In this document: piece by piece, positions 3,583-34,659 of the stretch
Layout: each line of letters opens with the position of its first letter
Numbering within the stretch: the stretch's first letter is position 1
Assembly (NCBI GenBank): GCA_016870615.1
Contig: VGAZ01000008.1
Location: 1 to 34,659, forward strand
DNA from: Actinomycetota bacterium
GTDB lineage: Bacteria; Actinomycetota; Humimicrobiia; Humimicrobiales; Humimicrobiaceae
Length of the DNA: 34,659 nucleotides
Direction of reading: 5' to 3'
Translations under genes and position numbers: made by a program
The notes under the pieces: generated by a model
Database searches by the model: none
What the model saw: only the letters and a program-made list of their open reading frames with translations
What the model was told of the DNA's origin: nothing

Positions 3583-3849
3583 TTATTTTATCTTTAAAGA
3601 TTTATTAAATACTTTTTTTTGCTCTTTAATGATTTCAGTTAATGACCTCAATGCTTTATTTACAGAGTCATGGTCGGGAAAGTACTCTGCAACATCTGGG
3701 TCAATAACCACAATGTTTGTACCTTCATCATATTTTTTTGCATATTTTCCCTTGATACCCTGACTGAAGTCATATTCTTCAAGCATGTCGGGATCTTCTT
3801 GAATTCTCTTCATATTGTTTCTTCTCATTTTTTGTTGCTTTTCTTGCAC
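3583..3849 (-). CDS. BrnA-like antitoxin of a type II TA pair (likely internal start near 3813)
   Basis: MKRIQEDPDMLEEYDFSQGIKGKYAKKYDEGTNIVVIDPDVAEYFPDHDSVNKALRSLTEII resembles antitoxins encoded downstream of BrnT. It overlaps the 3' end of the toxin gene. Confidence 0.75.
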   Translation of the reverse strand: MQEKQQKMRRNNMKRIQEDPDMLEEYDFSQGIKGKYAKKYDEGTNIVVIDPDVAEYFPDHDSVNKALRSLTEIIKEQKKVFNKSLKIK

Positions 3850-4075
3850 TTATTATTCTTATTTTATCATCTTTTTCTGTATGAACAACAACCAGCAGTT
3901 GGTTTTTACAGGAATTTCCAATCAAAATGAATCTGTCTTCTTCATCTGAATGAAGGGGATCAAAAATTGTTAAAGATAAAGTGTCTTTGAAAGATGTACT
4001 TGCCTCATCAAACGACACAGCGTGAATTTTAATATTCTTTTTTGCCTTACCTGGATCCCATTCAAATGAAAGCAT
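3779..4075 (-). CDS. BrnT family toxin
   Basis: FEWDPGKAKKNIKIHAVSFDEASTSFKD...DPLHSDEEDRFILIGNS...LLVVVHTEKDDKIRIISARKATKNEKKQYEE is the BrnT signature. Confidence 0.92.
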   Translation of the reverse strand: MLSFEWDPGKAKKNIKIHAVSFDEASTSFKDTLSLTIFDPLHSDEEDRFILIGNSCKNQLLVVVHTEKDDKIRIISARKATKNEKKQYEENSRRSRHA

Positions 4076-34228: not shown

Positions 34229-34316
34229 TGGTGCGAGAGAGGGGACTTGAACCCCTACAGGTAGTTAGCCCACTAGATCCTAAGTCTAGCGCGTCTGCCA
34301 ATTCCGCCACTCTCGC
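34229..34316 (-). tRNA. tRNA-Leu (UAG anticodon), CCA encoded
   Basis: Acceptor GCGAGAG/CTCTCGC, anticodon stem-loop CTAGA-CTTAGGA-TCTAG, long variable arm, T-loop GTTCAAGTC, 3' CCA. Confidence 0.93.
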
Positions 34317-34320
34317 TAAA

Positions 34321-34396
34321 TGGTGGGTCGTACAGGCTTCGAACCTGTGACCCCCTGATTAAGAGTCAGGTGCTCTACCAACTGAGCTAACGACCC
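34321..34396 (-). tRNA. tRNA-Lys (CUU anticodon), CCA encoded
   Basis: GGGTCGT...GCTCAGTTGGTAGAGC...CCTGA-CTCTTAA-TCAGG...GTTCGAA...ACGACCCACCA. Confidence 0.95.
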
Positions 34397-34406
34397 ATTT
34401 AAAGAT

Positions 34407-34490
34407 AATCCCAGCTAATATGCTGTCGCATATCAGCATACCTAAATAGGTATCTTTACCTTAAAATTTAACAAAAACCTGGCACGCCTG
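34407..34490 (-). repeat. Copy B of a hairpin-bearing repeat ending in a tRNA-Arg 3' acceptor
   Basis: AATCCCA + hairpin GCTAATATGC-TGTC-GCATATCAGC + ATACCTAAATAGGTA + TAAAATTTAACAAAAACCTGGCACGCCTG. The 29-nt tail (34462-34490) is identical to 34631-34659. Confidence 0.85.
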
Positions 34491-34500
34491 GAGGGATTCG
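34480..34500 (-). pseudogene. Truncated tRNA-Arg-like 3' fragment (T-loop through CCA)
   Basis: Reverse complement CGAATCCCTCCAGGCGTGCCA looks like the 3' T-arm and acceptor end of a tRNA-Arg. No 5' half is present upstream of it on the minus strand. Confidence 0.6.
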
Positions 34501-34574
34501 GTCTTTCGTCAAATCCTGCTGGATTTGCTGCAGAGCCGCGGACTCCTTCGCTTTCGCTTCAGTCCGTCCTTTCG

Positions 34575-34659
34575 AATCCCAGTAAACATGCCACTGGCAT
34601 GTTTACATACCTAAAAAGGTAGCCTCAATGTAAAATTTAACAAAAACCTGGCACGCCTG
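34575..34659 (-). repeat. Copy A of the hairpin-bearing repeat, running to the window edge
   Basis: AATCCCA + hairpin GTAAACATGCC-ACT-GGCATGTTTAC + ATACCTAAAAAGGTA + TAAAATTTAACAAAAACCTGGCACGCCTG, offset 169 bp from copy B. May lead into an intact tRNA-Arg beyond the window. Confidence 0.85.

Follow-up and report, generated by a model that had tools for sequence, protein, structure and literature searches.

A family of small, gene-free elements behind tRNA and tmRNA genes of Humimicrobiaceae with an arm that matches the T-arm of the tRNA in front

The right end of a contig from an Actinomycetota genome carries two copies of a repeat beside a cluster of tRNA genes, which raises the question of what the repeat is and how it came to stand there. 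The window, i.e. the whole stretch of 34,659 nt that was analysed, is the entire contig C8 of a genome of 2.13 Mb in 235 contigs. The original prediction described two units, each composed of AATCCCA, a hairpin, ATACCTAAAWAGGTA and a common segment that closes with a tRNA 3′ end in reverse complement, and both units were found in this layout, at 34407-34507 and 34575-34659. A copy search recovered the exact motif four times in the genome and not once in the reversed control, which is not chance, and the element core occurs approximately 11 times in the host genome. The sequence ATACCTAAAWAGGTA is present in both window units, but it is locus-specific and does not belong to the family. The prediction had also considered an assembly artefact at the contig end or the edge of a longer array. 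The repeat is not an artefact; the contig breaks inside an array, which continues to the right on contig C52 with two more units behind tRNA-Arg(TCG). Besides these two further units, C52 carries tRNA-Arg(tct), tRNA-His and tRNA-Arg(TCG), while the window has the order Lys(ctt)-Leu(tag)-tig and relatives show the unbroken order Arg(tct)-His-Arg(tcg)-Lys(ctt)-Leu(tag). Because the tRNA order is continuous in relatives, C52 and C8 very likely join via the array.

The unit is a non-coding element of approximately 165 bp with no gene inside. Read on the tRNA strand, which is the minus strand in the window, the order starts with the last 21 nt of the tRNA (C56 to CCA). There follow an AT-rich stretch, the lead F, then a hairpin and an arm of 8 nt called antiT. 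Behind these come a core of approximately 75 nt, which is the conserved part of the element, and the next 21-nt copy. No terminal inverted repeats were evident by eye from the start of F to the end of the core. On this strand, the window opens with the start of another tRNA-Arg 3′ end copy (34649-34659), which is cut by the contig end and continues on C52. It is followed by F (34607-34648), the hairpin GTAAACATGCC-AGT-GGCATGTTTAC (34582-34606) and the antiT arm GGGATTCG (34573-34580), the inverse of the tRNA T-arm. The antiT arm forms the 5′ strand of a closing helix, P1, the 3′ strand of which (34493-34500) is the T-arm part of the second tRNA-Arg(TCG) 3′ end copy (C56 to CCA, 21 nt, 34480-34500). 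Together, P1 and the structured core span 88 nt (34493-34580) and score 88.6 bits with the covariance model (CM R1). The last unit then has its F with the locus-specific ATACCTAAATAGGTA (34438-34479) and, in the family-wide hairpin slot, the stem GCTGATATGC/GCATATTAGC (34414-34437, as read on the tRNA strand), the one G·U of which is located on the minus strand, i.e. the tRNA strand. It lacks a core and ends in a leftover antiT (GGGATT on the minus strand, 34407-34412). Directly past the array end lies tRNA-Lys(ctt) (34321-34396), and tRNA-Leu(tag) (34229-34316) is next in the cluster, both also on the minus strand. The original prediction had missed the diagnostic parts of this anatomy, namely the folded core (34501-34572), the antiT arm and the exact 21-nt duplication. 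Elsewhere in the window, a BrnT-type toxin gene (3583-4075; PF04365, 8.5e-28) has beside it, in the antitoxin position, a small ORF without a Pfam match, and an AAA_14/DUF4143 ATPase gene (1054-2334) lies near the left contig end.

A covariance model built from 67 aligned cores matched 24 of the 35 Humimicrobiaceae genomes, which are draft MAGs. It gave no match in five genomes from other families of the same class, and in a sample of 296 genomes of the phylum it matched nothing beyond the family. A search at the DNA level returned relatives from the host genome and most family-level relatives. When named species genomes were scanned for a core 19-mer, nearly all matches were in Candidatus Humimicrobium, Candidatus Hydromicrobium and Actinomycetota MAGs, which is the ground for naming the host family Humimicrobiaceae; those in Arthrobacter, Brachybacterium, Ruania and Lachnospiraceae were attributed to chance, and L115, L121, L132, L133 and L141 contained no core. 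No covariance model of Rfam 15 matched the core up to E 3-5. Carriage by phages or plasmids was rejected, as neither yielded a match and the exact 19-mer was absent from viral contigs, and so were larger cargo-bearing versions, since cores lying 3-5 kb from each other turned out to belong to distinct tRNA loci.

The resulting catalogue of 152 copies or cores, on the same strand as the tRNA, upholds the description of a tRNA-linked repeat family. A same-strand tRNA or tmRNA lies 62-128 nt (mostly 62-79) in front of 113 of the 152 cores, and the remaining 39 comprise units within arrays, copies at contig edges and relics. The hosts comprise 23 tRNA types and tmRNA. Never occupied in the sampled loci were Glu(ttc), His, Lys(ctt), Phe, Val, Gly and Thr, most of which stand within the same clusters as occupied tRNAs; Asp, Trp and Leu-gag had an element at every sampled locus, the sampling being conditioned on presence. 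The same tRNA clusters are occupied patchily, with differences between close relatives, 11 of the 35 family genomes have no element (including G011, G012, G021, G026 and G030), and many copies are truncated relics. Two relics upstream of tig (L261, G019 C133; L218, G031 C218) have a tRNA-Leu 3′ remnant at their end and no tRNA in front; here, the element apparently remained after loss of the tRNA. At another locus (L210, G019 C80, 1255-1747), the element carries a tmRNA 3′ remnant and adjoins a truncated tyrosine recombinase gene on the opposite strand.

The copy behind the core equals the tRNA 3′ end exactly, over all 21 nt, in 81 of 96 loci. Identity is absent before C56, and past CCA it drops to 50% at the first base, 45% at the second and close to chance (31% expected) beyond. 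Clean empty sites are present in sister genomes, at tRNA-Ser(tga) and also at tRNA-Lys. In G001, tRNA-Ser(tga) is followed by CGCTCT and then by tRNA-Arg, whereas in G000 the same CGCTCT stands behind a second copy of the tRNA-Ser(tga) end, with the element between. Because insertion leaves a second C56-CCA copy, the tRNA in front stays intact. These results show that the element inserts and that the duplication is exact, and they agree with the suggestion in the original prediction of a tRNA-associated mobile element.

The antiT arm matches the site at which it is found. At 95 of 104 loci, its inner-7 pairs perfectly with the T-arm of the preceding tRNA, and nine different T-arm sequences occur among the antiT-matched loci. 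At the 59 loci with unusual T-arms, antiT matched its own T-arm in 56 cases and the common T-arm in one. The mismatches totalled 11, as compared to a permuted mean of 112, and none of 10,000 permutations was as good. Because antiT is complementary to the T-arm of the tRNA that was hit, the P1 fold is closed on tRNA sequence. At the tRNA-Trp of G033, antiT fits the proximal and not the distal copy. In G001, the antiT of the Ser(gct) element is still GGGATTTG, as in the Ser(cga) element of that genome, and it pairs via one G·U; here, a retargeting intermediate is visible.

Selection for structure while the sequence changes, as originally claimed for the hairpins, was borne out both there and in the core. 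In the hairpin slot, a stem of at least 9 pairs is present in 100 of 104 loci, as compared to approximately 16% of shuffles, with 71 different stem sequences among the 104 loci. A covariation test with covariance model and alignment revealed strong covariation in the core. Mutual information, with no structure assumed, recovered P1, P2, P4 and a long-range contact, 50-87. In the structure assigned to the core, 97.4% of cells were paired versus 86.6 ± 0.5 after shuffling, and both-sided changes occurred in 15 of 23 pairs. The covariation score was 0.338 versus 0.140 ± 0.007 for shuffled and 0.025-0.057 for slid controls; shuffling leaves relatedness in place, and slid controls do keep it. Single cores folded better than shuffles (z -1.9 to -4.0), and unpaired core positions were invariant. 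These results show that the fold is conserved. There were 110 G·U pairs versus 14 A·C, and 46 versus 14 when the near-constant pair 49-55 is left out; two tandem G·A were conserved, one being swapped for A-U pairs in three sequences. The excess of G·U over A·C and the G·A tandems thus point to an element that would act as a single strand of tRNA sense, whether RNA or DNA. At A1 columns 54-58, some cores (L096, L094 and L085, for example) have the CTGCAG motif swapped as a block for an ACGTGAG-like sequence, as if two versions of the P3 loop existed.

Comparison of elements between loci bears on how they move among tRNAs. Core similarity tracks genome and genus and not tRNA type, while F tracks tRNA type within the genus. 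Since F follows tRNA type and the core does not, much of the pattern is old, with cores swapped between loci and not always jumps of whole elements. Fifty-seven within-genus pairs of elements have a similar F on different tRNAs, of which 38 differ in the T-arm and all 57 in the acceptor strand. Among the pairs listed, the tRNA acceptors keep 7/7 pairs (tmRNA not being scored), and only a few of their antiT arms fail to fit the new T-arm. Taken over all loci, the proximal acceptor forms 7/7 pairs with its own 5′ strand in 97 of 98 cases. Duplication of the target's own 3′ end, rather than an end carried by the element, is favoured on these sequence comparisons, because each listed tRNA keeps its own acceptor and because self-carried tRNA ends should make chimeric tRNAs common. 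An odd, type-II-like tRNA called Ala(cgc) was observed at L048 (G000 C57, 891-979). There, the proximal acceptor looks foreign and fits worse, and the copy behind the element looks original, a configuration that would fit an element carrying its own tRNA end.

No enzyme family was found to track the element; Y1_Tnp, RVT_1 and Cas1 are each missing from several carriers, some of which are 94-98% complete. Membership of a REP-like family, which had been offered as one reading, was not supported: Y1_Tnp (PF01797) is absent from the host genome (G000), G014, G027 and other carriers, and REP/RAYT (Y1_Tnp) as the motor was rejected for want of association. A casposon or Cas1 is not required, PF01867 being present in 8 of 35 genomes (over cut-off in 6 of 35) and absent from G000, G010 and G022. 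The integron integrase model TIGR02249 was over cut-off in none of the 35 genomes. RVT_1 was detected in 12 of 24 carriers versus 0 of 11 element-free genomes, with several near-complete carriers lacking it; this bias (approximately 0.003, one-sided, by hand and ignoring kinship) is suggestive. A group II intron RT is nevertheless disfavoured as the motor, as the RTs belong to ordinary group II introns and near-complete carriers without any exist. At L197 (G006 C126, 1022-2895), a group II intron with an RT (one internal stop) lies inside the antiT arm of a tRNA-Pro(cgg) element, just after the hairpin. This intron is a secondary insertion; related introns in L198 and L199 lie behind terminator-like hairpins. 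Tyrosine recombinases, which stay candidates for the enzyme, are present in 35 of 35 genomes, and element-free genomes have the same two basic recombinases as carriers.

With moderate confidence, we propose that the repeats form a family of small mobile elements, encoding no protein and inserting at tRNA and tmRNA 3′ ends, with antiT as the target guide, duplication of the 3′ end and an enzyme acting in trans. The anatomy is seen directly at the loci, and from it we infer the guide role and the enzyme. The element would act as a single strand, most likely RNA from tRNA read-through. Pairing of antiT with the target T-arm would guide it and bring the core to end precisely at C56 on its 3′ side; the 21-nt duplication would then arise from one cut at C56 and another behind CCA, or from target-primed copying of the stretch between them. 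Since the core end adjoins C56 in P1, cutting or priming at C56 and a cut after CCA would give the observed product. Changes in antiT would let the element reach other tRNAs, and the enzyme would be supplied in trans. It is possible, though unlikely, that the element is a bacterial SINE-like retroelement that retargets by base pairing across the tRNA set, using an RT supplied in trans. A structured RNA would be cut from the tRNA transcript, and its antiT would base-pair with T-arm DNA at a different tRNA gene. There, the opposite strand, nicked across from C56, would prime copying of the core 3′ end, and a second cut after CCA would yield the 21-nt duplication.

An integron-like cassette system, in which a Xer-like host tyrosine recombinase puts circular cassettes into the tRNA T-loop, P1 and the core form an attC-like site and the 21-nt repeat is an identity block carried by the element, is in our judgement unlikely. 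Integrases are typically recognised by direct repeats of a tRNA 3′ end, the elements form tandem arrays, tyrosine recombinases are universal in the family, and both the antiT of the G033 tRNA-Trp element and the acceptors of L048 would fit such a system. The group II intron beside the hairpin of one element is also in its favour, as attC sites are a known target of group IIC introns (PMC7923331). However, no integron integrase exceeded the cut-off in the 35 genomes, the two basic recombinases are shared with element-free genomes, and moves between tRNAs would make chimeric tRNAs, whereas nearly all proximal acceptors match their own 5′ strand.

A structured RNA in the tRNA 3′ trailer that benefits the host, through processing, decay or regulation, and is spread by ordinary duplication or conversion without mobility of its own appears improbable. 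It would account for a fold strongly conserved on the tRNA strand, for an antiT with two possible pairing partners, the upstream T-arm and, as a decoy, the distal copy, and for the occupancy of Asp, Trp and Leu-gag at every locus in a sampling conditioned on presence; it sits poorly with the 11 element-free family genomes, the differing occupancy of the same clusters in close relatives and the many truncated relics. Replication template switching with no dedicated enzyme, which would copy cores by microhomology and keep the hairpin and the antiT/T-arm repeat perfect by quasi-palindrome correction instead of selection, seems improbable as well. Although it explains why no enzyme correlates with the element, why cores are homogenised within genomes whatever the tRNA, and why near-perfect hairpins have many sequences, such correction would erase G·U pairs and the conserved G·A tandems, yet both persist. 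The invariance of unpaired core positions also speaks against it, and the exact C56-to-CCA limits at 23 tRNA types and tmRNA are left unexplained.

Under the proposed guided insertion, a protein-less element on 23 kinds of tRNA and on tmRNA, which leaves the tRNAs intact and carries a matched arm, would be a natural case of base-pair-guided, retargetable insertion. Even if the mechanism is recombination, the family adds a new structured nucleic acid, for which over 150 natural variants and ready target-match data exist. It also accounts for tRNA-linked assembly breaks in these genomes.

The element shares features with several known systems. In IS608, hairpins are combined with a short arm that, like a guide, recognises the target by base pairing. 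The element resembles IS200/IS605 and REP in its hairpins and short guide-like, target-pairing arm; in contrast, IS200/IS605 elements leave no target duplication, whereas 21 nt are duplicated here, and Y1_Tnp is missing from the host genome. Bacterial MITEs and structured repeats such as bcr1, Correia and REPIN are short, non-coding, repeated and partly palindromic, and so is the element, but it has an exact tRNA 3′ target, an arm rewritten for each target and no terminal inverted repeats evident by eye. Casposons likewise target tRNA 3′ ends and duplicate the target (casposon literature); unlike the small element, which again shows no terminal inverted repeats by eye, they are large and encode Cas1 and PolB. 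With elements that integrate into tRNAs by Xer or phage integrases, it shares the direct repeat of the tRNA 3′ end and a crossover region at the T-loop, but it has no integrase, is only 165 bp long, carries an inverted antiT arm, occupies 23 tRNA types and tmRNA, and leaves native acceptors. Integron attC cassettes and CALINs are similar in their tandem cassettes and in a site that folds as a single strand and has complementary outer arms peculiar to each copy, which correspond to P1. Unlike them, the element has neither an integron integrase nor genes, its target is the T-loop, its arms track the tRNA, and 21 nt of target are duplicated; moreover, its outer arms consist of T-arm sequence, for instance CGAATCCC/GGGATTCG, and not of the attC core sites GTTRRRY/RYYYAAC. 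Target-primed retrotransposition of SINEs and LINEs and group II introns share a structured RNA and base-paired target choice and, for SINEs, short target duplications, of which the present one is 21 nt long, exact in 81 of 96 loci and accompanied by an empty site; RT, which belongs to ordinary group II introns, is found in 12 of 24 carriers, however, and the element has no intron domains. To our knowledge, non-autonomous retroelements of the SINE kind have not been established in bacteria. As the element was not placed in any of the groups tested for membership, and searches of open PMC text found no description of it, it seems to represent a bacterial mobile element of a new kind; if any non-autonomous insertion with target duplication were counted as one known kind, the milder description would be a further form of that kind.
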